A stretch of DNA of 64,000 nucleotides from an uncultured Cohaesibacter sp. Its GTDB lineage: Bacteria; Pseudomonadota; Alphaproteobacteria; Rhizobiales; Cohaesibacteraceae. Below are positions 38,540-64,000 of the stretch, one piece after another. Where the stretch lies: NCBI RefSeq assembly GCF_963678225.1, contig NZ_OY782763.1, positions 248,001 to 312,000 on the forward strand. The letters run 5' to 3'. Both the position numbers and the translations under genes were made by a program. Position 1 is the first letter of the stretch; each line of letters starts with the position of its first letter. The notes beneath the pieces were generated by a model. The model saw only the letters and a program-made list of their open reading frames with translations, was not told where the DNA came from and did not search any database.

Positions 38540-40093
38540 ATGAAACATTTCAGTTCTTATTCGTTAGCGCCAGTTCTGACACTGATTATGGTTGCTTATG
38601 GACCGGCGACGCTGGCTGATGAAAATGAGGTCTATCTCGGGCAAACCGGTGTAACCAACGTCATCGATATCGATCAGGTTGGCAATTCGAACAAGGTTGG
38701 CGCGAACGAGACTGCAATATTCATTTCTCAGCAAGGCACCAGCAATGGCATAACCATTTCACAATCAGGATATGCCAACGAAGCTGGCGCCAGCGCCGCA
38801 ACAGGCCGTTTGGGCCTGCAGGGTCTTTACCAGACGGGTAGCCAGAACGCGCTTGATATCAAGCAGGAAAATGACAACGCCCTTGGCATGAACCGCATCG
38901 GCGCAATCTCGCAGGACTCGCCTGCCACCTATGCCTCCAGTGTGAGCAACAGCCTTACGATCATCCAGTCTCACAATGCGATCGATGGAACTGCAGGATC
39001 AGAAGATGGACAAGGCAACCATAGCATCGGCGAAATCCAGCAAATCCAGACAAGTACAAACGGAGCCAGCAACACCGCGGTCATCAGACAGTTTGATGGC
39101 GCAGAAGATGCCTATGATGGAAACCGGATTGGATGGTTCGTTCAGAATGGTAGCGGCAACATTGCCAGTGTGACACAACAATATCGCGGCAACATCCTCA
39201 ATACCTTCCGCCAATATGGCCAATCGAATGAAGCCACCATCTTCCAGCATTCGGGAACAGAAAACCGCATAGCCCAGTATGATCAGGTCGGCAGCTTCAA
39301 CAGGGCTTCCGTTGCCATGATTGGCTCGCGCAACATGCTTTGGTCTCTGATCCAGAATAACGACCTTGTCAGCATCACTGGCAATCTGGCCACCATTACG
39401 CTTGAAGGCGACGACAATGGCGGCGATGGGTTTGGCGGCTTGGGACAGTTCACCAAGGAGAACACCAAGCAGCTGCAGGTATCTCAAGGTGAGGTCAAGC
39501 AGTTGGGAGACCACAACACGCTCAACATGGTAACCACCGATGCCTCGACCATGACAGCCTATGGCTTTGTGCAGGATGGCGACGGCAACTGGCTGAGCGG
39601 CACCGTAGACGGGATCGAAAACGAGGTAGCCTCCTCCCAGATCGGGGATGGCAACCGGCTCAACTTCGTGCAGACGGGTGACAAAAACAGCGTGGCCGTC
39701 ACTTATAAGGGCAAAGACAACGAGCTGGATGCAAAACAGACCGGGGATGAGAATAGCATGACTGTTTCGTTTGATGGCGCGGTCACCCCCCTCTCCCGCA
39801 GCGACCAAACCAACGATGCTGCGCTCGGAGGTTTCACAGATCTTGTGCTCGCCTCATCCGGCACGCTTACACCCGGGCAAGCGATGCAAACCGGCGACCT
39901 CAATGTTGCATCTATTCAAGTCAATGGCGGCAGCTTTAACAAATTCGCTTTTTCGCAGACAGGTGATCAAAACATGATTGATGGCGCGATAACCGGTTTA
40001 TCGAACCAATCCGCGGTGATACAATCCAACAACGATAACTATGCCTATTACCGCCAAACGGGCAATTACAACCAACTTATCATCCTGCAGTAG
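38540..40093 (+). CDS. Large curlin-repeat secreted protein 3
   Basis: The 517-residue secreted protein has a signal peptide (HFSSYSLAPVLTLIMVAYGPATLA). Its curlin repeats are more varied than in proteins 1 and 2: YLGQTGVTNVIDIDQVGNSN, ISQQGTSNGITISQSGYAN, VQNGSGNIASVTQQYRGN, IFQHSGTENRIAQYDQVGS and FVQTGDKNSVAVTYKGKDN. It is richer in Tyr and Asp. The C-terminal module (PGQAMQTGDLNVASIQVNGG to YNQLIILQ) is again the shared end module. It may be a nucleator or a second fibre component. The start has AAAGGCAGTCTT upstream. Confidence 0.87.
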   Translation: MKHFSSYSLAPVLTLIMVAYGPATLADENEVYLGQTGVTNVIDIDQVGNSNKVGANETAIFISQQGTSNGITISQSGYANEAGASAATGRLGLQGLYQTGSQNALDIKQENDNALGMNRIGAISQDSPATYASSVSNSLTIIQSHNAIDGTAGSEDGQGNHSIGEIQQIQTSTNGASNTAVIRQFDGAEDAYDGNRIGWFVQNGSGNIASVTQQYRGNILNTFRQYGQSNEATIFQHSGTENRIAQYDQVGSFNRASVAMIGSRNMLWSLIQNNDLVSITGNLATITLEGDDNGGDGFGGLGQFTKENTKQLQVSQGEVKQLGDHNTLNMVTTDASTMTAYGFVQDGDGNWLSGTVDGIENEVASSQIGDGNRLNFVQTGDKNSVAVTYKGKDNELDAKQTGDENSMTVSFDGAVTPLSRSDQTNDAALGGFTDLVLASSGTLTPGQAMQTGDLNVASIQVNGGSFNKFAFSQTGDQNMIDGAITGLSNQSAVIQSNNDNYAYYRQTGNYNQLIILQ

Positions 40094-40254
40094 AGGCTAT
40101 TGGTGTTTTTCAATCACTCTACCACAGGCTTTAACGCAAGATTCACTTCAATCTCAAGAAAAGGCTCCGATCAGCCATTCGATAGGACGCCATAAAATCT
40201 GATTAAAGAAATACCTGTTCTAATCGCTTCAAACAAAAGCAAAGGAACAGGGAC

Positions 40255-40764
40255 ATGCAAAAACAACTTACAGCTATCGCTGCGATCCTTTTGATGAGCG
40301 CAGCATCGCAGGCAAAAGCAGACACCAACGTCATCGAACTACTGGATGACGCGAATACAGAAGGAAATGTTATCGAGTTAAACATTATGGGCAATGGCAA
40401 CAGCCTCAACCTATCCCAAAGCTTCGCCTTTGGAGGCTATGGCCAGAACCTGATGGATATCACAATCGATGGCAACAACAATGGTGGACCGGCTGGGGCA
40501 AGCTTTACAGGCGTAGCTCTTGCGAGCGGTCTACAACCGGGAAATTTGGTTCAGGAAGGCTTCAATAACAGTATGATTGTCGATGTTAGCGGCACAAGCA
40601 ATCTATTCTCCTTCCTGCAAAACGGGAGCCAAAACACGCTCCAAGCCTCAATTGAGGGCACAGGTAATCAGGCCGCTGTGCAGCAATATGGACAGAATAA
40701 TCACGTCAGCTTCAGCCAGATGGGAAGCAACAACAGCATCAGCATCTCGCAAAGATCTTTCTAG
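40255..40764 (+). CDS. Small curlin-repeat protein (CsgA/CsgB-size)
   Basis: The 169-residue protein has a signal peptide (LTAIAAILLMSAASQAKA) and about five curlin-type units, including GNGNSLNLSQ, VDVSGTSNLFSFLQNGSQN, IEGTGNQAAVQQYGQNN and a final MGSNNSISISQRSF. Its size and repeat number match classical CsgA or CsgB, unlike the three giants upstream. A conserved LQPGNLVQEGFNN motif near residue 90 opens the end module shared with the large proteins. The start is preceded by AAAGGAACAGGGAC. Confidence 0.88.
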   Translation: MQKQLTAIAAILLMSAASQAKADTNVIELLDDANTEGNVIELNIMGNGNSLNLSQSFAFGGYGQNLMDITIDGNNNGGPAGASFTGVALASGLQPGNLVQEGFNNSMIVDVSGTSNLFSFLQNGSQNTLQASIEGTGNQAAVQQYGQNNHVSFSQMGSNNSISISQRSF

Positions 40765-40799
40765 GATTATTCTGTGCCAATGAATGAGGAAACTGGCAC

Positions 40800-41528
40800 A
40801 TGAACAAAGCTCTAACCTTGGGACTTCTCGCTACGGCATTGGCGGGATTTTCTCTCTCACCAGCACTGGCGGGAGATCAGAATATACTGGTGTTGCAGCA
40901 GGACGGTGCGGCAAATACGATTTCAATCGACCAGCAAAAGGCAACGGGCAGTCAGGTCGGTGGCGTCAACTTCATCGAGGCTACGCCACTTGAGTCATCC
41001 GAATTCGAAGTGATGGACATGTCCAACCCCTTGCAAATCACCGAAGGGCTTCAAAACCCGATTGTGCAACAGGGAGATGGCAACAGCGCCACCATCACCG
41101 TTGAGGGCGACGAGGATGTCGTCTATCTCAACCAGAATAGTCAGGGACAGCCAACCGGCAATAATGCCGATATCTATGTCAATTCGGGCACTGCTGATCC
41201 ATCCTTTGCGGCAGTCGTGCAAAATGGCGCGGGCAACAATGCGTCCGTTAGCATCAATGGCAGCCTTTCCAATGGCACAATCTTGCAGAACGGGTCTAAC
41301 AATCAGGGGGCTATCGACGTAGACGGCAACAATGTCACAGCATCCCTGACGCAGGTCGGCTCGGACAATGACAGCCAACTGGTCGCGCAAGGCGCATCGA
41401 CGTCTGCCACCGGTGTTGATGGCGCCAATGTGAGCTATACGCTCTATGCCAATGGAGTGACCACGACACAGCCTGTCACGGTGACGACCAATGGCGCTTC
41501 GGTAAGCATCACGCAAACTCAATTCTAG
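40800..41528 (+). CDS. Curlin-repeat protein, possible minor subunit
   Basis: The 242-residue protein has a signal peptide (LTLGLLATALAGFSLSPALA). It starts ILVLQQDGAANTISIDQQ and has irregular repeats (VQQGDGNSATITVEGDEDVVYLNQ, VQNGAGNNASVSINGS and ILQNGSNNQGAIDVDGNN). The last 60 residues depart from the repeat and are Thr/Val-rich with beta-strand character (VTTTQPVTVTTNGASVSITQTQF). The less regular repeats suggest a nucleator, adaptor or surface-anchoring role. It lies 35 bases after the previous gene, with TGAGGAAACTGGCAC ahead of the ATG. Confidence 0.82.
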   Translation: MNKALTLGLLATALAGFSLSPALAGDQNILVLQQDGAANTISIDQQKATGSQVGGVNFIEATPLESSEFEVMDMSNPLQITEGLQNPIVQQGDGNSATITVEGDEDVVYLNQNSQGQPTGNNADIYVNSGTADPSFAAVVQNGAGNNASVSINGSLSNGTILQNGSNNQGAIDVDGNNVTASLTQVGSDNDSQLVAQGASTSATGVDGANVSYTLYANGVTTTQPVTVTTNGASVSITQTQF

Positions 41529-52893: not shown

Positions 52894-53814
52894 TCAACCA
52901 CCGATCATGCATTTCAGTCCAAGAGACTCGATGACCTTTTTGAGCGGAGGCAAGGCATCCTTGGGAAGATCGGGGGTATCGCCCATTGGGTAGGCCCTGT
53001 TAAGCAAACCATACTTATTTTCCCCATAGGAGTGATAGCCCAACAAATGGACTGTCTCCACACCAGGCAACATCTTGGCGAAGTTACCGATATCCGAAAT
53101 TGCCTGCTCGCTGTCATTGACGCCGGGTACCACTGGAACACGGACAACAACCGATTTGCTGGTCATGGCAGTGCGGATGGCATTTTCAAGAATAATGCGA
53201 TTATCAACACCGGTGTTGGCCATATGAACCGCCGGATCAATAGCCTTGATATCAAGCAGCGCATGATCGACATGCGGCATGACATCAGCAATGATCTCGG
53301 GCGTTGTGAATCCGGTGGTCTCCATCGCAGTATTCCAGCCCTGCTCATGGCAGGCCTTGAGCAGCTCGCGAGCAAAATCGCTCTGCATCAGCGGCTCGCC
53401 ACCGGAAAGCGTGATCCCGCCACCAGACCGGCGATAATGGGTCGCATCCTTGCGCACTTCCTGCAAAACCTGATTGACCGTCATCACTTTGCCCGAACGG
53501 GTCAGGGCATCGGTTGGACACACCTCGGCGCAGGCTCCACAGCGAATGCATTTGTCGCGATCAACAAAGCCCGGATTATCGCGCGACAAGGCAGAAACGG
53601 GACAAACCGGAAGACATTTGCCACAATGAATACAGCTCGAATCCTTGTAAAAAAGCTCCGGCTTCGGATCCTGGGATTCAGGGTTGCTGCACCAACGACA
53701 CCGCAACGGACAGCCCTTGAGAAAGACGATTGTCCGTACGCCGGGACCATCATGAATTGAGTAGCGCTGGATGTCGAAGACGACACCTTCCTGATCGTAG
53801 TTAATTGGGGCCAT
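52894..53814 (-). CDS. Glycyl radical enzyme activating enzyme
   Basis: The 306-residue radical SAM protein installs the glycyl radical on the dehydratase encoded upstream. The SAM-binding cluster cysteines are C35, C39 and C42 (GCPLRCRWC). An inserted two-cluster ferredoxin domain has C61-C64-C67-C71 and C89-C92-C95-C99 (CIHCGKCLPVC and CIRCGACAEVC). GGITLSGGEPLMQ near residue 135 matches the SAM-binding GGE motif. The inserted ferredoxin is typical of activases for dehydratase-type glycyl radical enzymes. It is encoded between the GrpU-like shell gene and metK. Confidence 0.95.
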   Translation of the reverse strand: MAPINYDQEGVVFDIQRYSIHDGPGVRTIVFLKGCPLRCRWCSNPESQDPKPELFYKDSSCIHCGKCLPVCPVSALSRDNPGFVDRDKCIRCGACAEVCPTDALTRSGKVMTVNQVLQEVRKDATHYRRSGGGITLSGGEPLMQSDFARELLKACHEQGWNTAMETTGFTTPEIIADVMPHVDHALLDIKAIDPAVHMANTGVDNRIILENAIRTAMTSKSVVVRVPVVPGVNDSEQAISDIGNFAKMLPGVETVHLLGYHSYGENKYGLLNRAYPMGDTPDLPKDALPPLKKVIESLGLKCMIGG

Positions 53815-53853: not shown

Positions 53854-54156
53854 TCAGAAGCTGGTTTGTCCTGCAATCTCGATTGACTCCATCGCCGCCT
53901 TCACTGCGGAGGTTTCGCCCAGAATTGCCAGTGTCGTTACATGCTGAGGGCATGTGCCATAGATCTCGACGGTGAACACGTCAGCAGCCTTCAAGGCAAG
54001 ATCGGAGAAGAAAAACAGATCCGTCACACTTGCCTGAATAAGACCGATGGACCCGACACTGTGTTCCTTGACCCACGTGCGGCCATGCGGAGGCATGCGT
54101 CTCTGGAGCATCAGCAGCACGTCCGGTTGCGGAGCATTGATGATCCTTGCATTCAT
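53854..54156 (-). CDS. GrpU-like BMC-H shell protein
   Basis: The 100-residue shell protein has a single, apparently permuted BMC domain: VGSIGLIQASVTDLFFFSDLALKAADV, then TVEIYGTCPQHVTTLAILGETSAVKAAM. The YGTCPQH segment recalls the G-x-C-P-Q motif reported for GrpU, a microcompartment shell protein that binds an Fe-S cluster at the hexamer pore. That role here is inferred from the motif. It is encoded between pduP and the activase, and a hairpin lies just upstream of its start. Confidence 0.82.
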   Translation of the reverse strand: MNARIINAPQPDVLLMLQRRMPPHGRTWVKEHSVGSIGLIQASVTDLFFFSDLALKAADVFTVEIYGTCPQHVTTLAILGETSAVKAAMESIEIAGQTSF

Positions 54157-54280: not shown

Positions 54281-55984
54281 CTATCTCACATTCAACGATT
54301 CCACCATCACGCATCTGCGTTTGCGGGCAAAAGCTTTCGGGCCGGTCAGCCCTTCACCGGTCGGTCCAGCAATCGTGAAGGTTGTATAGCCTTCACCGCC
54401 GACGCCGATGCCTGCATAGGATGGGCCATTCTTGACAAAAATGGTGGTCTGGATGAGCTTGGCCATCTTGGTCAGCTTGCGCACATTGGTCGAATGCATC
54501 ATCGCCGTGTGACGGTTGCCATGTTCGACTTCAACGGCGAAATCGATGGCTTCATCAACATCTGGCACGCGCACCAGCGGCAGAATCGGCATCATCAGCT
54601 CTTCCTGAACGAAGACATGCTCCTTGGGCAGATCAATCAGAATGACCTTGATGTCATCACCAACCTTGATGCCGACCTTGTCGAGCAGATAGACAGCGCT
54701 CTTGCCAACACATGAGGTCTGCGGCCCCCCCTTTTCGTTGATCACCAGCGCTTCGAGCTTCTTGACCACAGCTGGGTCTTCCACCAGATAGGCGCCACAT
54801 TTGGTCATGCAGGAGATGAGATAGTCCGCGATCTGGTTGACTGCGACGATTTCCTTCTCGGCGATGCAAGGCAAATTGTTATCGAAACTGCAGCCATTGA
54901 CGATATCAACGGCAGCCTTTTCAATGTCTGCGGTTTCATCGACGACAACCGGCGGATTGCCAGCCCCTGCCCCGATGGCCTTCTTGCCGGTTGACATGAC
55001 CGTCTTCACGATACCCGGGCCACCGGTGGCGACCAGCATGCGGATCTTGGGATGCTGCATCATGGCATTGGTGTTATCGATGGAAGGCTCTTGTACCGTC
55101 GTGATCAGGTTGGCTGGAGCGCCAAGCGTTGCCAGCTTGCGGTTGATCAGCTTGATGGTCAAAAGGGAAACAACCCGCGCACGCGGATGCGGGCTATAGA
55201 CCACCGAGTTTCCTGCAGCCAGCATGCCGATGGAATTGCAGATGATGGTCTCAGTCGGGTTGGTGGTCGGTGTGATGGACCCAATAACGCCATAGGCGGA
55301 ATATTCCACCAGCGTCAAACCGCCATCGCCACTGCATGCTTCCGTCGTCAGGTCTTCGGTACCCGGCGTCTTTTCAGCGGCCAGTCGGTTCTTGATGATC
55401 TTGTGTTCATATTTGCCCATACCCGTCTGCTCGGCGCCCATATGGGAAATCCGGTCCAGAGTTTCGGGCTCCAGGATCACATCGCGAATGCCATCGATGA
55501 AAGACTGGCGCTCTTCCATGGAGCAAAAGAGATATTGCTTCTGGGCAAGCGCGGCAGCTTCAACCGCTTCGTCCATGGTAGCAAAGAGACCATCACCCAA
55601 TTCGGTTGCTTCCGCATCGGAAACAGCAATCGATACACCCGAGGCGGCAGGCTTTGCAGTTGATGCCGGGGCTTTACCCATCGATTCCGAGAGCACCTTG
55701 GCAATAACGTCCGAGACCATGGCATCATCAGATGCAGAGCCCTTGTCCGCACGTTCCCAGCCACACTTGGTCGGGCTTGGAACATAGTCTGGCTTTGCCT
55801 TGGCGCCACCGGATTTGCTTTCACCAAGGATTTGGGACACGAGACTGGCCACTTGATCCTCGGCAGGGGTGCTTTTTGCCACCGCTTTATTATTGACCGG
55901 AGCAGGAACCACAGGTGCGGCGTTAGCTCCGCCAAAGCTGCTGAGGACTCTCGTCACAGCTTCGGAGATCTGTTGATCGTTCAC
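54281..55984 (-). CDS. pduP: CoA-acylating aldehyde dehydrogenase (PduP-like) with triple N-terminal targeting helices
   Basis: The 567-residue enzyme oxidises an aldehyde (probably propionaldehyde) to the acyl-CoA with NAD. The catalytic Cys373 is in FDNNLPCIAEKE. Other matches are YGVIGSITPTTNPTETI near 230 and GGPGIVKTVMSTGKKAIGAGAGNPP near 321-345. PduP is normally about 465 residues. The extra N-terminus of about 100 residues holds three short amphipathic helices resembling encapsulation peptides: residues 2-17 (NDQQISEAVTRVLSSF), 42-55 and 87-102. They are separated by Ala/Pro-rich linkers. It lies 31 bases after the PduO-like gene. Confidence 0.93.
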   Translation of the reverse strand: MNDQQISEAVTRVLSSFGGANAAPVVPAPVNNKAVAKSTPAEDQVASLVSQILGESKSGGAKAKPDYVPSPTKCGWERADKGSASDDAMVSDVIAKVLSESMGKAPASTAKPAASGVSIAVSDAEATELGDGLFATMDEAVEAAALAQKQYLFCSMEERQSFIDGIRDVILEPETLDRISHMGAEQTGMGKYEHKIIKNRLAAEKTPGTEDLTTEACSGDGGLTLVEYSAYGVIGSITPTTNPTETIICNSIGMLAAGNSVVYSPHPRARVVSLLTIKLINRKLATLGAPANLITTVQEPSIDNTNAMMQHPKIRMLVATGGPGIVKTVMSTGKKAIGAGAGNPPVVVDETADIEKAAVDIVNGCSFDNNLPCIAEKEIVAVNQIADYLISCMTKCGAYLVEDPAVVKKLEALVINEKGGPQTSCVGKSAVYLLDKVGIKVGDDIKVILIDLPKEHVFVQEELMMPILPLVRVPDVDEAIDFAVEVEHGNRHTAMMHSTNVRKLTKMAKLIQTTIFVKNGPSYAGIGVGGEGYTTFTIAGPTGEGLTGPKAFARKRRCVMVESLNVR

Positions 55985-56015: not shown

Positions 56016-56501
56016 TTAATTCGAAAAAAGGTCTAGAGCGCGTTCGGCGATCTGCACATCCTGATAGGCAGTGCCTCCACTCACTCCAATGGCGCCGATA
56101 ACCGCGCCATCGCGACAGCATGGAATGCCGCCGCCGAAAATCACGACGCGTCCACCAATATTGGCCTGCACGCCAAAAAGCATTTCACCGGGCTGGGCCA
56201 GCTTGCCCAATTCCTCAGTCGTCATGCGAAAAGTCGCTGCTGTGTGCGCCTTGTCGGTCGCCAGTTGGGCGCTCACCGGCAGCGCGTTCTCCATCCGGTG
56301 AAACAGGATCTGCTGTCCATGTGGATCGGCAATCGAAACAGCAATTGGCACACCAATCTCCAAAGCCTTCTTCTGCGCAAGGTCCGCCAACGTCTTGGCT
56401 TCCTTCAAGGTCAGGGTCTGGCTCGGGAGACCAGGGTTCAAGCGCGAGATCTCGCGATTGATCAGTTCCGAAATCTGCTCCCTGTTTTCTGCTGTCAGCA
56501 T
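56016..56501 (-). CDS. PduO C-terminal / HbpS (GlcG) family protein
   Basis: The 161-residue protein matches the DUF336/GlcG family: TLTLKEAKTLADLAQKKALEIGVPIAVSIADPHGQQILFHRMENA, then DKAHTAATFRMTTEEL, PGEMLFGVQANIGGRVVIFGGGIPC, and a C-terminal GAIGVSGGTAYQDVQIAERAL. In PduO this domain follows the cobalamin adenosyltransferase, and in HbpS it binds haem. This locus uses no B12, so the protein here is either a haem/redox-binding accessory or a leftover of Pdu organisation. The role is unknown. It is encoded between the vertex protein and pduP. Confidence 0.85.
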   Translation of the reverse strand: MLTAENREQISELINREISRLNPGLPSQTLTLKEAKTLADLAQKKALEIGVPIAVSIADPHGQQILFHRMENALPVSAQLATDKAHTAATFRMTTEELGKLAQPGEMLFGVQANIGGRVVIFGGGIPCCRDGAVIGAIGVSGGTAYQDVQIAERALDLFSN

Positions 56502-56512
56502 CGACCATGTCC

Positions 56513-56788
56513 TTACCAGTTATGCTTGGTTTCAACGGTATCCACGATGCCAACAATCGCGGCATCGGTAACCGAATTCTCCAGGGTTGCGGCTTTGCGC
56601 GCCGAGCTGTTCTGGGTAACGATCACAATCTCATCGTTACCAGCCCCAACCGTATCGACGGCGATTTCCGTCTCTCCAGTCGGCTCCTGCTTTTCGTTGA
56701 GCTTTGCCACAATCAGCAGCTTGGATCCGGACAGGGACATATCCTTGCTGGTGGAAACAACAGTTCCGATGACTTTAGCCAAATACAT
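56513..56788 (-). CDS. BMC-P vertex protein (EutN/PduN family)
   Basis: The 91-residue protein has the pentameric shell fold: YLAKVIGTVVSTSKDMSLSGSKLLIVAKL at the N-terminus, then AVDTVGAGNDEIVIVTQNSSARKA and AAIVGIVDTVE. Five copies close each vertex of the icosahedral shell. It lies 12 bases after the flavoprotein-like gene and is the only BMC-P in the visible part of the locus. Confidence 0.93.
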   Translation of the reverse strand: MYLAKVIGTVVSTSKDMSLSGSKLLIVAKLNEKQEPTGETEIAVDTVGAGNDEIVIVTQNSSARKAATLENSVTDAAIVGIVDTVETKHNW

Positions 56789-56800
56789 GATCCTGACCTT

Positions 56801-57634
56801 TCAATGCCTGACGACGCTAATATTGCGCGCCCTCAGTTCCTCAAGAGCGAGTGGCGTGACCACAACACCCTCAGCGATGTTAATTGTTGAGCCGCTCGCA
56901 AGCTTGGCGTCACGCCATCCGAACACCCGCTTGCTATCGGCGGGGATGAGGGCCGGAGCTTGAGGCGTTATGAGCGCTGCTTTTTGTTCTGCTGTGAAAG
57001 CGCGTGTATCCGAAACGAACGGTGTCACGGCTCCAGCAACAACCCTCGAAAGCTGGGGCGCACGGCACAGCCTGACCCCATAGCGGTCCAACGCTTCCAG
57101 ATTGGCGATCATCATGGCCCGATAGGCATCATTGGCCACAAACAACCGATCATCACGATCACGACAGGCCGGACAACAGGCGTCTTTTGCCGCCACAATC
57201 ACTTTGCCCGTCTCCAGAGCCGTTGCCATCAGCCTTGAAGGCGCATCATCGCCAATGCCATGAACTACCTTGGCGGCCAGTGCCATGCTCATATTGGGAA
57301 CGATGAGCATGGTTTTATCGGCCAGTAGTGAAGACATACCGGTCATTGGAGATACCGCATCAAGAACGGTCCATGCTGTCTGGGGTATCGCAAGTGTTTG
57401 AGCAGGGAAGGTGGAGGGTATGGCTTCAAACACTTCGCGTGTGGCTGCGACATCAAGTGACCAACTGTCGCGATACAGCTTGTTCAGCTCCTGAACGGCA
57501 TCTCCAATTCCGGCATCCGACATATCCAGCAAAACCAGCGCCTTGCGCTTCATCACTGAAAGTCGCTCGATGATCTTCTCTGAAATGATTTCTACGAGAA
57601 CCGTTTGAATGATACGGGAGAGGTCTGGCATCAT
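56801..57634 (-). CDS. Flavoprotein-like protein of the microcompartment locus
   Basis: The 277-residue protein has no strong classical motif that I recognise. The N-terminal half (about 30-150) has alternating beta-strand/helix segments (KALVLLDMSDAGIGDAVQEL, TMLIVPNMSMALAAKVVHGIGD) resembling the UbiX/CoaC flavoprotein fold. The middle has an AAKDACCPACRDRDD cluster with three Cys, which could be a metal or Fe-S site. The end, INIAEGVVVTPLALEELRARNISVV, resembles tails seen in other microcompartment proteins. From memory, such flavoproteins accompany some glycyl-radical microcompartments. Its start overlaps the eutJ stop by four bases. Confidence 0.7.
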   Translation of the reverse strand: MMPDLSRIIQTVLVEIISEKIIERLSVMKRKALVLLDMSDAGIGDAVQELNKLYRDSWSLDVAATREVFEAIPSTFPAQTLAIPQTAWTVLDAVSPMTGMSSLLADKTMLIVPNMSMALAAKVVHGIGDDAPSRLMATALETGKVIVAAKDACCPACRDRDDRLFVANDAYRAMMIANLEALDRYGVRLCRAPQLSRVVAGAVTPFVSDTRAFTAEQKAALITPQAPALIPADSKRVFGWRDAKLASGSTINIAEGVVVTPLALEELRARNISVVRH

Positions 57635-58491
57635 TGCACTCCCCCTGCCTGCCCGGTCTGGCTGGCATTCTGCTCATACATCGCAATGCCGAGCGGTGTG
57701 ACCAGAAGCGGCTCTGCCGGTTTGATCACGGTCTTGCCAGTCTGTTGCGCGAAGGCTTTTTCAAAGCCGGAAAAGGTGCAGGCACCGCCGACCACATAGA
57801 TGTCGTCAACATCTTTGCCATCCAGAAATCTGGAAACGATGCTGGCCATCTTGTCGACCACAGGCCGCACGACAGGAAACACATCCCGATCGTTCGCAAC
57901 ATCAAGCTTGTGTTCCTCGGCCTCATCAAAGCTCATGCCATAGGCACCAGCAAGCACAAGGGTCATGTGCGTTCCGCCGGTTGCTTCATCGAAGGAGCCC
58001 AGCACCTTGCCATTTTTCAGAATGCTGATGCCTGTGGTGCCGCCGCCCACGTCAACGACGGCACCATCGCTCACCATCAATACGCGCGATGCAGCTGTCG
58101 GTTCATCGACAATCTCAACAAGTTCCATGTCGGCCGCTTCCACCACATTGCCAATGGCCTTGGCATTGCCGGCATGAATACCGGGAGGAATGGCCGTTGC
58201 AGCCCGAACAAGCTGTTGGCCCAGGCGATCCTCGATAATCGCCTTGAGAGACCGAACAGCCTGAACAGCCCCCACATAATCAACCACAATGCCATCACGC
58301 ACGACAGTCGAGCGATAGCTTGCCCCGGTAACAGGCCGGTTTTGCGCATCAACCACCGACAGCACGATATTGGCCGTTCCAAGGTCGACGCCGACCTTCA
58401 ACGGGCCTTCAGCCCACTCAGATTTCGGCAATATTGCCTCCTCTCTGATCAGGTCTGCAAAGTCGTGCAAGATATCATCGGAACTGCGCAT
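57631..58491 (-). CDS. eutJ: EutJ-like ATPase-fold chaperone
   Basis: The 286-residue protein has the actin/Hsp70 ATPase fold: KVGVDLGTANIVLSVVDAQNRPVTG near residue 31, AVVDVGGGTTGISILKNGK near 144, VDEPTAAS near 128, and YVVGGACTFSGFEKAF near 234. It lacks a peptide-binding domain. EutJ proteins are thought to be reactivating or chaperone factors in ethanolamine and glycyl-radical microcompartments. Its role here is unproven, since the dehydratase is not B12-dependent. It overlaps the flavoprotein-like gene by four bases, so the two are translationally coupled. Confidence 0.88.
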   Translation of the reverse strand: MRSSDDILHDFADLIREEAILPKSEWAEGPLKVGVDLGTANIVLSVVDAQNRPVTGASYRSTVVRDGIVVDYVGAVQAVRSLKAIIEDRLGQQLVRAATAIPPGIHAGNAKAIGNVVEAADMELVEIVDEPTAASRVLMVSDGAVVDVGGGTTGISILKNGKVLGSFDEATGGTHMTLVLAGAYGMSFDEAEEHKLDVANDRDVFPVVRPVVDKMASIVSRFLDGKDVDDIYVVGGACTFSGFEKAFAQQTGKTVIKPAEPLLVTPLGIAMYEQNASQTGQAGGVQ

Positions 58492-59288: not shown

Positions 59289-59957
59289 TCAGGCGCGTCT
59301 GCGTCTGCCGCGGCCAGTCTTGCGTGTCGTAGCCGGTTTGGCGCTAGATGATGCGGGCTTTGCAGCCTCGATCGGCTTGACTTCAGCAACCGGCTTAAGA
59401 TCCAGCTCTTCCGTTTTTGCCACTTCCGGAGCTGCTTGCTCTGCCTTCTCCACGTCTGCCTTGCTCTTGGCACTCGCGCTTTCAGCAGCCTCAGCCTTGC
59501 CTTCGGTCTGCTCAGGGGCCGGAGCCTCCGCTCCAGCGTCCTCGCCAGTGGCTTCAGAGCCCTTGTCCGAGCCGCCTTCACCGGAATCGTCAGGACCAGA
59601 TTTCGGCCCTTCCCCCCCACCTGTCGGCGGAGTCGGTTCAGGAGGCTCAAGTGGCTTTGGGAGGTCAGCACCAACCGTTTCTTCGGAGATGACCATGCAC
59701 TCCATGCCATCAGCAGGTCTTGCGATCACTTTCGTGGACACGACCGTGTTGATTTTGGCAGCAGCGGCGGTTGCCGCTGCCACGGCAGCATTGACTGCAC
59801 CGACTTCGCCATAGAGCTTGACAACCGTCATGCCACCTCCCTTGGCCAATTCGTAGCCGACAAGCTCGACATTTGCAGATTTCACGGCAGCGTCTGCCGC
59901 TTCAATGGCAGCAGTCAGGCCCGTCGTTTCAATCAAACCGAGGCTTTTCTGCGACAT
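59289..59957 (-). CDS. BMC-H shell protein with long acidic tail and arginine-rich end
   Basis: The 222-residue protein starts with a normal BMC-H domain (residues 2-90: KSLGLIETTGLTAAIEAADAAVKSANVELVGYELAKGGGMTVVKLYGEVGAV). The remaining 130 residues are low-complexity: Gly/Pro-rich at first, then Ala/Glu/Ser-rich and acidic. It ends with a basic cluster, RKTGRGRRRRA. It resembles PduK/EutK in having a C-terminal extension, but not in sequence. The tail could tether cargo or neighbouring shells, or bind RNA or DNA. The pore loop is KGGG, less open than in the smaller BMC-H at 60829. Confidence 0.88.
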   Translation of the reverse strand: MSQKSLGLIETTGLTAAIEAADAAVKSANVELVGYELAKGGGMTVVKLYGEVGAVNAAVAAATAAAAKINTVVSTKVIARPADGMECMVISEETVGADLPKPLEPPEPTPPTGGGEGPKSGPDDSGEGGSDKGSEATGEDAGAEAPAPEQTEGKAEAAESASAKSKADVEKAEQAAPEVAKTEELDLKPVAEVKPIEAAKPASSSAKPATTRKTGRGRRRRA

Positions 59958-60828: not shown

Positions 60829-61110
60829 TTATTCCGCGCTTTTCGGCAGGATTTTTTCAACTTCGGTATGTGGGCGTGGGATGACATGGACGGAAACCAC
60901 GGTGCCAACTTTTTCAGCAGCCACTGCGCCAGCGTCGGTAGCAGCTTTAACTGCGCCAACATCGCCACGAACCATAACGGTCACAAAACCAGACCCGATT
61001 TTTTCATAGCCGATCAGGCCGACATTTGCGGATTTGACCATCGCATCAGCAGCTTCGATTGCGCCTACGAGGCCTTTGGTTTCAACCATACCCAATGCTT
61101 CTTGTTGCAT
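60829..61110 (-). CDS. BMC-H shell protein (PduA/PduJ/EutM type)
   Basis: The 93-residue main shell hexamer has [57 protein letters not shown], the full canonical BMC-H core with pore loop [21 protein letters not shown] is the usual C-terminal helix. It probably makes most facets of the shell. It precedes pduB by 25 bases on the minus strand and is followed by the other shell and enzyme genes. Confidence 0.95.
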
Positions 61111-61198: not shown

Positions 61199-62338
61199 CT
61201 ATCCACCAAGGCGCCGCAGCAACCGCACCAGGTCTTGAGCAACCGGCTTTCTGGGATTGGTGGCCGTGCACGCATCCGCGAAAGTCGCTTTAACAAGGGT
61301 TTGTTCGCTGTGGGCATATGCGTTCATGTCGATCCCCTGCCCCCGAAGCGTTGCGGGAATGTTGAACTGCGCATTCAGGCGTTCGATCGCGTGAATGAGA
61401 GCCCAGACACCCATCTTGATGCTCGGGAAACGCAGGCCCAGGCTGGTCGCAGCCTTGGCATAGACGTCCGCCGTCTTTTCGCAGAAGGCTGAGCCTTCGC
61501 TAAGGCCGGCGTTATATTCAATGACCAGAGGCAGAAGCATGGCATTGAGACGACCGTGGGCGACATGAAACTGTCCGCCGATGGCATGAGCCAGTCCGTG
61601 GTTCAGGCCAAGGCCTGCCGAATTGAACGCCATGCCCGCCATGCAGGAAGCCTGATGCATCTCTGCGCGGGCTTCCAGATCATCGCCATTCTTGAATGCA
61701 ACCGGCAGGCTTTCAAATGCCAGCGACAAGGCCTTGGCAGCCAAAGCGTCGGAGCAATAGGAAGAGCGGGAAGATGCAAGAGCCTCGATGGCATGGGTTA
61801 TGACGTCCATCCCGGTGTCCGCAGTCACATTGGCAGGAGCCGTGCGGACAAATTCGGGGTCCAGGATCGCAACATCCGGTATCAGTGAGTTGGATACCAA
61901 TGGAAATTTGCGATTGTTGGCCGGGTCGGAAATCACGGCATAAGACGTCACCTCTGATCCGGTTCCCGATGTGGTGGGAATGGCTACAAACTGGATAGTG
62001 AGTTGGGGTTTGACTTCTCGAACGACAGCCAGAATGGCTTTCGCAGCATCAATGGCGGATCCGCCACCCAGAGCAACGATCGCGTCCGGCTCGAAGTCGG
62101 CAAGAAGGCCAGCTCCCTTGGACACTGTTTCGATAGGCGGCTCAGGGATCGCTTCATCATAGACGAAACACTCAGATCCGGTGAGATGCGCCCGTACCCT
62201 GTCCAGAGCACCGGATTTTGCCATGAAGGCATCCGTGACGATCGCAACCTTCTGACCGCGATAAGCGTTCAGTCGATCCAGCATCCCGGCTCCAAAAACA
62301 ACTTCCGTTTTTGAAAAGAAGCTCTGATAACGAGACAT
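61199..62338 (-). CDS. Iron-containing alcohol dehydrogenase (PduQ-like)
   Basis: The 379-residue enzyme reduces an aldehyde (probably propionaldehyde) to the alcohol with NADH, regenerating NAD for PduP inside the shell. The NAD-binding GGGSAIDAAKAI is near residue 96. SGTGSEVTSYAVI is near 141. The Fe-binding His pattern is in GLNHGLAHAIGGQFHVAHG near 258-276. The length is normal. It lies between the glycyl radical enzyme and the BMC-H gene. Confidence 0.9.
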   Translation of the reverse strand: MSRYQSFFSKTEVVFGAGMLDRLNAYRGQKVAIVTDAFMAKSGALDRVRAHLTGSECFVYDEAIPEPPIETVSKGAGLLADFEPDAIVALGGGSAIDAAKAILAVVREVKPQLTIQFVAIPTTSGTGSEVTSYAVISDPANNRKFPLVSNSLIPDVAILDPEFVRTAPANVTADTGMDVITHAIEALASSRSSYCSDALAAKALSLAFESLPVAFKNGDDLEARAEMHQASCMAGMAFNSAGLGLNHGLAHAIGGQFHVAHGRLNAMLLPLVIEYNAGLSEGSAFCEKTADVYAKAATSLGLRFPSIKMGVWALIHAIERLNAQFNIPATLRGQGIDMNAYAHSEQTLVKATFADACTATNPRKPVAQDLVRLLRRLGG

Positions 62339-62466: not shown

Positions 62467-64000
62467 CTAGAGATTTTGCTCGGTACGGCTGATGATGTCG
62501 TCCTGCACTTCCTTGGCGAGCACGACCCACTGGGCGCTATAACCAGCCACGCGGACCACAAGGTCTCTGTGTTTTTCAGGTTCACGCTGAGCTTCGAGCA
62601 AGACGTTTCTGTCCACCACGTTGAACTGGACATGCATGCCCTTGTGATCGAAGTAGGAGCGTACAACCGAAGTGAAGTTCAGGATGCCATTGTCGCCAGC
62701 AAGGGCGGATGGCAGGAACTTCTGGTTATAGAGGGTACCGTTGGAGGCAATGAAGTGGTTGAGCTTGGCAACCGAGTTTGCCGCAGCGGTCGGACCATTG
62801 ACGTCCTTACCCTGACGAGGAGATACACCGTCAGCAAGAGGTGCCTTGGCCAGACGTCCGTCAGGCAGTGCAGCAACATCTTTACCGAACAGCACGTTGG
62901 CAGACACAGGATAGATACCAGCCTGGAACTGACCGCCGCGCGGGTTGGTGTATTTTTCGACTTCTTTACAGTAGATCTCAGCGCACTTGCGGGCAATCAG
63001 ATCGACTTCATCGATGTCGTTACCGAAGCATTCGGCACTATCGAGCATGCGATGAATATCGGCATATTTGCCGCTAGGCGCAGCGCTGGAAGAACCAAGG
63101 GTCTGGTAGACCTGATCTTTCAGAGCGGAGACATCCATGGAGTTGTTGTTGGCAAGAACCTTGCGAACAGCGGCATAGACCTGATCTTCAGACAGTTCCG
63201 CAGCTGCAGGAGCAGCACCGCCAACCGGCTGACCGAAGTTGTTGACCAGAGCTTCCTTGAGTTCTGCCGGGCTGATTTTCTTTTCGTCAAAGACGAATTT
63301 CTTCATTGCGTAGACAGAGTCACCGGTGTCAGCAACACCAAAGGCCTGCGGGCCGGTGAAGTTGTACAAGGCGCCGCCTTCCTGCACGGACATGCCGCGA
63401 CCAAGGCAATCATCAACCATTGCAGACTGGAACGGCAGAGGAGCCATTTCGGCGTGCGCAATGTCAACGCAGTTGTCAGCTTCAACCAGATGGTAGACGA
63501 AGTAGGCCATCTGTTTTTCAAAAGCATCGTAGAAGTCATCAAGGCACTTCCACTGCGATACGTCCGGTGTAACCGGACCAAGCTGCTTGTTGCCGATGGT
63601 GCCTGGCGTTTCGCCAACTTTACCACCGTGCAGGGTGATTTCGAGGATCTTGGCTACGTTGAAGAATGCAGCGTCGTGCCAGCCTTCTGCCTTATGGATT
63701 GGCTGCGGTTCAACGCAACCGACAATGCCGTAATCGCGGGCATCGGCAAGAGAAACACCACGGTTCTGAAGAGCCGGAATGATCACTTCGTCGTTATACA
63801 TGGCCGGAACACCAAGACCCAGACGAACAACTTCCGTAGCGCGGAAGAGGAATTCATCAGGCGTGCCCTGCCAAACGCGAATGGAGAAGGAAGGAGCTGG
63901 CAAACGAACGTGAGAAACAGCTTCCATGCACATGTAGGAAACATCGTTTGTAGCATCCAGCCCGTCAGAAGTCTGACCACCAACGCACAGATTCTGGAAC
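62467..64000 (-). CDS. Glycyl radical enzyme, probable 1,2-propanediol (or glycerol) dehydratase, 5' end outside the window
   Basis: The gene runs off the window end; about 511 C-terminal residues are visible and the frame is open to base 64000. The active-site segment is GCVEPQPIHKAEGWHDAAFF, with the thiyl Cys and nearby Glu. The glycyl loop RVAGYSAQW has its radical Gly at about 62542-62544. The EGWHDAAFF stretch with Asp 14 residues after the Cys fits glycerol/propanediol dehydratases. As I remember it, choline lyase CutC has Trp-Thr-Ser and a Tyr here. Between FGQ and YADIHRM lies an inserted segment of about 54 residues (63067-63228) with two amphipathic helices resembling encapsulation peptides. 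Confidence 0.92.
   Translation of the reverse strand, partial: FQNLCVGGQTSDGLDATNDVSYMCMEAVSHVRLPAPSFSIRVWQGTPDEFLFRATEVVRLGLGVPAMYNDEVIIPALQNRGVSLADARDYGIVGCVEPQPIHKAEGWHDAAFFNVAKILEITLHGGKVGETPGTIGNKQLGPVTPDVSQWKCLDDFYDAFEKQMAYFVYHLVEADNCVDIAHAEMAPLPFQSAMVDDCLGRGMSVQEGGALYNFTGPQAFGVADTGDSVYAMKKFVFDEKKISPAELKEALVNNFGQPVGGAAPAAAELSEDQVYAAVRKVLANNNSMDVSALKDQVYQTLGSSSAAPSGKYADIHRMLDSAECFGNDIDEVDLIARKCAEIYCKEVEKYTNPRGGQFQAGIYPVSANVLFGKDVAALPDGRLAKAPLADGVSPRQGKDVNGPTAAANSVAKLNHFIASNGTLYNQKFLPSALAGDNGILNFTSVVRSYFDHKGMHVQFNVVDRNVLLEAQREPEKHRDLVVRVAGYSAQWVVLAKEVQDDIISRTEQNL

Follow-up and report, generated by a model that had tools for sequence, protein, structure and literature searches.

The window, a 64,000-nt stretch of DNA from an uncultured Cohaesibacter sp., ends inside a glycyl radical 1,2-propanediol dehydratase gene that heads a set of compartment genes on the minus strand (Table 1). 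The gene runs past the window edge; its full ORF (L002:3468-6071:-) encodes 867 aa, and comparison with relatives suggests that the start likely lies about 19 codons further in, giving an 848-aa form. As in other GRM loci, genes for the glycyl radical enzyme (GRE), its activating enzyme, an acylating aldehyde dehydrogenase, PduL, BMC-H, a two-domain BMC protein and BMC-P were found together. The alcohol dehydrogenase-like ORF presumably encodes a propanol dehydrogenase, and the ATPase-fold protein is taken by us to be EutJ-like.

The best solved relatives of the dehydratase are 9rco, 1r8w and 5i2a. In one collection, 536 relatives were confirmed and the best 80 kept; among these, the closest named genome is that of Cohaesibacter marisflavi (99% identical). 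In another collection, a 398-genome sample of the phylum searched at an E-value of 1e-150, only the window's own genome matched. The dehydratase groups with that of Rhodobacter capsulatus and other alphaproteobacteria, in a set without the R. palustris GRM3 reference. The GRM subtype names of the compared loci other than R. palustris are presumed ones.

Table 1. Coordinates of the dehydratase, its insert and the neighboring operon genes in the window.
Feature	Position	Strand	Basis
Glycyl radical 1,2-propanediol dehydratase, C-terminal 510 residues	62467..63999	-	ORF; solved relatives
55-residue insert, residues 595-649 of the 848-aa form	63067..63231	-	alignment, model, PMC5311937
Helix 1, EDQVYAAVRKVLAN, encapsulation-peptide-like	63148..63189	-	pattern in 32/32 nearest sequences; PduP likeness; model residues 609-622
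Helix 2, VSALKDQVYQTLGS, conserved, without encapsulation-peptide signature	63091..63132	-	pattern in 0/32; model residues 628-641
Iron-type alcohol dehydrogenase-like ORF	61199..62338	-	ORF
BMC-H shell protein	60829..61110	-	PF00936, E 1.1e-28
Two-BMC-domain PduB-like shell protein, N-terminal amphipathic-looking segment	59979..60803	-	PF00936, 2 stretches
BMC-H shell protein, long Pro/Ala/acidic tail ending GRGRRRRA	59289..59957	-	PF00936
PduL phosphate propanoyltransferase, N-terminal encapsulation-peptide-like segment	58547..59203	-	PF06130, E 3e-78
ATPase-fold protein	57631..58491	-	PilM/MreB/HSP70-type matches
277-residue operon protein	56801-57634	-	no Pfam match at E 0.001
BMC-P vertex shell protein	56513..56788	-	PF03319, E 1.6e-30
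HbpS-like protein	56016..56501	-	PF03928
PduP-type CoA-acylating aldehyde dehydrogenase	54281..55984	-	PF00171
Divergent BMC-domain protein	53854..54156	-	PF00936 over cut-off, G000:C1:301869-302051
Radical-SAM activating enzyme, ferredoxin-type insertion	52894..53814	-	PF04055, PF00037

Three further observations concern the locus and its genome. In all 11 of the alphaproteobacterial loci L004-L014, one BMC-H protein carries a tail of 82-163 residues, mostly basic-tipped. A gene pair (L117:3030-5001; G000:C1 about 789.5-791.5 kb), one member of which has two BMC domains, is separated from the main shell locus by about 480 kb; the pair, presumably PduS-like and PduT-like, is an apparent satellite of that locus. 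Finally, three ORFs rich in N/Q repeats, which we take to be curli-like, are located at 38540-41528 on the plus strand.

The Insert and Its Predicted Structure

An earlier note on this DNA had read an insertion of about 54 residues between FGQ and YADIHRM of the dehydratase. The insertion is present and comprises 55 residues, the minus-strand frame 62467-63999 reading ...NNFG-QPVGGAAPAAAELSEDQVYAAVRKVLANNNSMDVSALKDQVYQTLGSSSAAPSGK-YADIHRM.... The insert was counted from the conserved NFG to YADIHRM, a span into which the short linkers of insert-less relatives also fall. The alignment to solved dehydratases that the note had proposed revealed that these 55 residues are extra relative to both the C. 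butyricum glycerol dehydratase (1r8w) and 9rco; absence from the former, a non-compartment enzyme, is a mark of GRM3-type insertions. At this alignment site, an insert is also present in the dehydratase of R. inulinivorans (5i2a). In the 81 loci of the first set, 78 have 50-88 residues at this site and three have 20-31. The helix positions of the insert are conserved across the family and the linkers are variable. A chance or misassembled extension was ruled out by this family-wide conservation.

The single chain of 848 aa was modeled by AlphaFold2 on 63 aligned sequences, with a mean pLDDT of 87.9, a pTM of 0.88 and a pLDDT of at least 90 for 496 of the 848 residues. In ten-residue blocks, residues 601-650 have pLDDT values of 47-67, compared with 93 for 581-590, 77 for 591-600 and 91 for 651-660. 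As in GRM3-type insertions, the predicted insert consists of two helices of about 15 residues, a short loop and disordered linkers (pLDDT below 50 at residues 602-607 and 642-646). The model aligns to 9rco over 792 of 793 residues at 1.0 Å and to 1r8w over 786 residues at 1.0 Å; neither structure has the insert, and the enzyme therefore folds without the loop. Structure comparison listed solely glycyl radical enzymes and class III ribonucleotide reductases. Modeling, another check named in the earlier note, predicts the insert to project, as helices of low confidence, from a core modeled with confidence. Burial, which the note had raised as an objection to its own reading, is not indicated: the low pLDDT and the insert-less structures suggest a mobile excursion, and a buried structural element was rejected on the same grounds.

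The Raoultella GRE (L024) and the structure 9rco are near-identical in sequence, but the 61-residue segment of L024 corresponds to 7 residues in 9rco, with RSG at the junction. The gap in 9rco is probably an engineered deletion, and its use as a natural insert-less control was dropped, since the near-identity and the RSG junction point to engineering.

Encapsulation-Peptide-Like Segments in PduP and the Insert

The N-terminus of PduP contains three encapsulation-peptide-like segments, DQQISEAVTRVL, EDQVASLVSQIL and DAMVSDVIAKVL, located ahead of the enzyme domain, and the near-identical PduP of L004 has the same three. For comparison, a GRM3 aldehyde dehydrogenase is described in PMC5311937 with two helices. 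Based on a rough pattern that misses some segments, three segments were counted in 3 of the 59 loci with a PduP match (L004, L009 and L012) and four in one (L034). The PduP gene of the latter, from an uncultured Neisseriaceae, harbors a 75-bp tandem repeat in 3.0 copies (L034:6427-6648), from which three of its four peptide-like segments stem.

According to the earlier note, two amphipathic stretches of the insert share the pattern E/D-Q-V/I-x3-V-x2-V-L with the N-terminal peptides of PduP, PduL and PduB. Written as [ED]-x2-[VI]-x3-[VI]-x2-[VI]-L, the pattern is present in helix 1 (EDQVYAAVRKVL), PduL (EQMIDKVVADIL) and all three PduP segments. The PduB segment (NDLVEQIMGEVM) fits it loosely at most, and helix 2 (KDQVYQTLG), with neither the acidic residue nor the V-L at the end, does not fit it. 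The shorter form E-x2-[VIL]-x3-[VIL] occurs in helix 1 of all 32 nearest sequences and in 56 of 78 overall. The same signature on helix 2, as expected of a tandem encapsulation peptide, is present in none of the 32 nearest sequences and in 2 of 78 overall, and the acidic position of helix 2 is occupied by Lys in 28 of the 32.

As for the amphipathic character of the two stretches, both form helices in the model, but neither is more amphipathic than its shuffles in this sequence (p = 0.20 for helix 1, p = 0.27 for helix 2); likewise, PduL and PduP segment 3 do not exceed theirs. Over the nearest 32 sequences, the hydrophobic moment averages 0.51 in helix 1 versus 0.34 in helix 2, and the moment of helix 1 against shuffles has a median p of 0.05, compared with 0.20 in this sequence.

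In this sequence both helices contain DQVY, and when helix 2 is shuffled, just 23 of 2000 trials equal their best match; for the 32 nearest sequences, shuffling of columns does as well in 31 of 500 trials. Compared with the peptides of its own operon, helix 1 best resembles PduP segment 2 (0 of 500 shuffles as good), followed by segment 1 (6/500), and has no clear match to segment 3 (48/500), PduB (70/500) or PduL (117/500). For helix 2, the match to PduP and PduL is poor (39 to 426 of 500 shuffles) but that to PduB is good (2/500), and the latter counts against a clean split between the helices. The duplication claimed in the earlier note is unsupported, because the encapsulation-peptide signature is found on helix 1 and not on helix 2; the lower moment of helix 2 and the weak match of the helices across relatives point the same way, and a duplication of the two helices appears weakly supported at best.

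Distribution of the Insert and Association with Shell Genes

A second search added to the first set. It gave 35 matches, 30 of which were taken as loci; the other five include L078 (already in the set), L114, L115 and L116, while the fifth, which matched partially and sat at the end of a contig, was left out. L114 and L115 were included because their match broke at the insert site. After removal of duplicates, namely L001 and L003 (the L002 gene) as well as L084, L085, L087 and L088 (the same sequences as L039, L058, L067 and L072), 110 distinct homologues remained.

An insert of at least 40 aa was found in 105 of the 110 homologues, while the insert-less sample consists of 5 genes from four genomes. 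A shell gene is present in the fetched locus of 87 of the 105 genes with the insert versus 0 of 5 without it (Fisher p = 0.00027; this and the following p-values are rough, because the loci differ in length, the species are related and two of the five were chosen by a broken match). When both flanks reach at least 5 kb, the counts are 58 of 64 versus 0 of 5 (p = 4e-5). At the first cut-off of 45 residues they were 86 of 104 versus 1 of 6 (p = 0.0014), the one being L112; the cut-off was lowered to 40 because L112, with 41 residues, plainly carries the insert. The earlier note had held that presence of the segment in non-compartment homologues would speak against targeting; what was found instead is that the five insert-less relatives all lack a local shell gene.

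The fetched locus contains no shell gene for 18 of the insert-bearing genes, ten of them in the first set (n = 78) and eight in the second. The flanks of the latter eight extend just about 1.5 kb or less, and for nine of the former ten, shell genes are found elsewhere in the genome. A whole-genome search for shell genes, run for the 13 first-set loci without an adjacent BMC-H gene, found them elsewhere for all but L052 (insert-less) and L067 (insert-bearing, a metagenome assembly). For the insert-bearing L075, L076, L077, L082, L054 and L057, roughly 7.5-10 kb to each side are free of shell genes, although their genomes carry such genes elsewhere. In the genome shared by L114 and L115, shell genes occur on the contig of L115, at a distance of about 100 kb from it, as well as on another contig; insert-less genes therefore also occur in shell-bearing genomes, away from the shell loci.

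Insert-Less Genes and Apparent Losses

All five insert-less genes retain the Cys and Gly motifs and adjoin an activating enzyme gene, and an alcohol-dehydrogenase-like gene is located near L078 and L114. In the loci of the five, no PduP, PduL or shell gene was found. These features are consistent with a targeting loop having been lost outside the compartment.

On a dehydratase tree built without the insert, by a quick method and with 2 of the 110 rows left out (fewer than 700 residues), two insert-less genes, L047 of Erwinia mallotivora and L052 of Commensalibacter intestini, are placed within the clade that bears the insert. The starred branches require the insert label to change at least three times. 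Long branches were flagged for L052, L078, L114 and L115, and not for L047. The remaining three insert-less genes fall in a 12-row group, the inner order of which is unsettled. Judged from this tree, L047 and L052 look like secondary losses of the insert. In PMC5311937, the targeting prediction is presented as resting on sequence, deletion and solubility data, and the apparent losses in Erwinia and Commensalibacter constitute an evolutionary control for it.

Proposed Role of the Insert

The insert is best read as an internal targeting signal. Taken as a whole, the segment is very probably a known GRM3-type module that targets the dehydratase to the compartment, with helix 1 as the tag and helix 2 as its companion. 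The internal duplicated targeting signal of the earlier note stands as an internal signal, already published as such, and falls as a duplicated one.

Mechanistically, the insert would form two helices that project from the enzyme on flexible Ala/Ser/Gly/Pro linkers without disturbing the catalytic fold. Helix 1 would act as an encapsulation peptide, most likely docking onto other encapsulation peptides, into the hydrophobic groove formed between shell tiles, or both, by which the dehydratase would join the compartment core and bring its activating enzyme along. Helix 2 would be a conserved companion helix and no second copy. Binding to shell or core and separate roles of the two helices are what we infer from the comparisons above. 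According to the evidence in PMC11157265, the binding sites of encapsulation peptides are grooves that form where shell tiles tessellate and that AMVKSA and AATDAGAAAA line; the same paper cites the loss of packaging when PduP residues E7, I10 and L14 are mutated. The BMC-H protein at 60829-61110 has AMVKSA and a second 10-residue motif, like the PduA groove motifs of that paper, and the E-x2-V-x3-V of helix 1 has the spacing of E7, I10 and L14 given there. By analogy, helix 1 may dock in the BMC-H groove. Since encapsulation peptides are reported also to drive condensation (PMC12339742), core assembly may be an equal or added role.

It is possible, if somewhat doubtful, that the insert mainly clusters dehydratases by core condensation or oligomerization, with shell contact being secondary or made via other enzymes. 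The reported condensates (PMC12339742) agree with this, as do two statements of PMC5311937, namely that the full-length R. palustris enzyme precipitates, and does so more slowly without the helices, and that the R. inulinivorans GRM5 insert takes part in an oligomer interface. However, helix 1 has the spacing of the packaging-critical PduP residues, and clustering is compatible with targeting, as one helix may do both.

A further, rather unlikely variant assigns split roles to the helices: helix 1 would be the shell or core tag, helix 2 would make a distinct selected contact, e.g., with the next dehydratase dimer, both would be shed when the enzyme leaves the compartment, and some aldehyde dehydrogenase partners in proteobacteria would have gained valency, up to three or four peptides per chain. 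If true, core valency would be an evolvable setting that is legible in sequence.

That the loop consists of a single targeting peptide duplicated in tandem, so that each chain would present two equal signals, is improbable: the DQVY common to both helices, the match equalled by so few shuffles and the likeness of helix 2 to the PduB segment speak for it, against which stand the weak match over the nearest sequences, the Lys in place of Glu, the missing pattern and lower moment of helix 2, and the amphipathicity reported for just one of the two helices in PMC5311937. Recruitment of the activating enzyme instead of the shell is highly improbable, as its gene in 5 of 6 insert-bearing loci inspected lends little support, all five insert-less genes still adjoin such a gene, and co-purification of the activating enzyme with the helix-deleted dehydratase, reported in PMC5311937, nearly refutes docking through the insert.

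With targeting of the dehydratase as the preferred reading, the internal loop shows that compartment tags can sit between the domains of a large radical enzyme, and internal tags of this kind would be useful for loading cargo with buried ends. The value added here beyond what is in print, i.e., the apparent losses and the helix comparison, is modest.

Comparison with Known Systems

An earlier bioinformatic paper by Zarzycki and colleagues (2015) is cited for the proposal of an internal peptide in the papers discussed here. An internal shell-targeting loop of this kind is already in print (PMC5311937, PMC6325248), and the present find is largely ordinary. In PMC5311937, an intramolecular encapsulation peptide is described for the GRM3 1,2-propanediol dehydratase of Rhodopseudomonas palustris BisB18: two helices of about 15 residues, a loop of about 5 residues and linkers of about 15 residues, absent in C. 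butyricum glycerol dehydratase. The R. palustris enzyme deprived of the helices is reported to be more soluble and still active. Compared by description, the window insert belongs to the same enzyme type and has the same two-helix architecture; it comes from another organism, and no difference in kind was seen.

The review PMC6325248 states that an insertion of about 60 residues, a predicted encapsulation peptide, is present in all GRM3, GRM4 and GRM5 dehydratases; the window insert is of the same size class, and no difference from that description was found. Encapsulation peptides within flexible surface loops are also mentioned in PMC6971018. The GRM5 insert of R. inulinivorans (5i2a, 5i2g) occupies the same alignment site as the window insert, but its sequence is not strongly conserved and a place in an oligomer interface is reported for it, as related in PMC5311937. 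With the N-terminal peptides of PduP and PduL, helix 1 shares the acidic-x2-[VI]-x3-[VI] spacing, whereas those peptides are terminal and helix 1 is internal; shuffling links helix 1 to PduP segments 1 and 2, and not to PduL.
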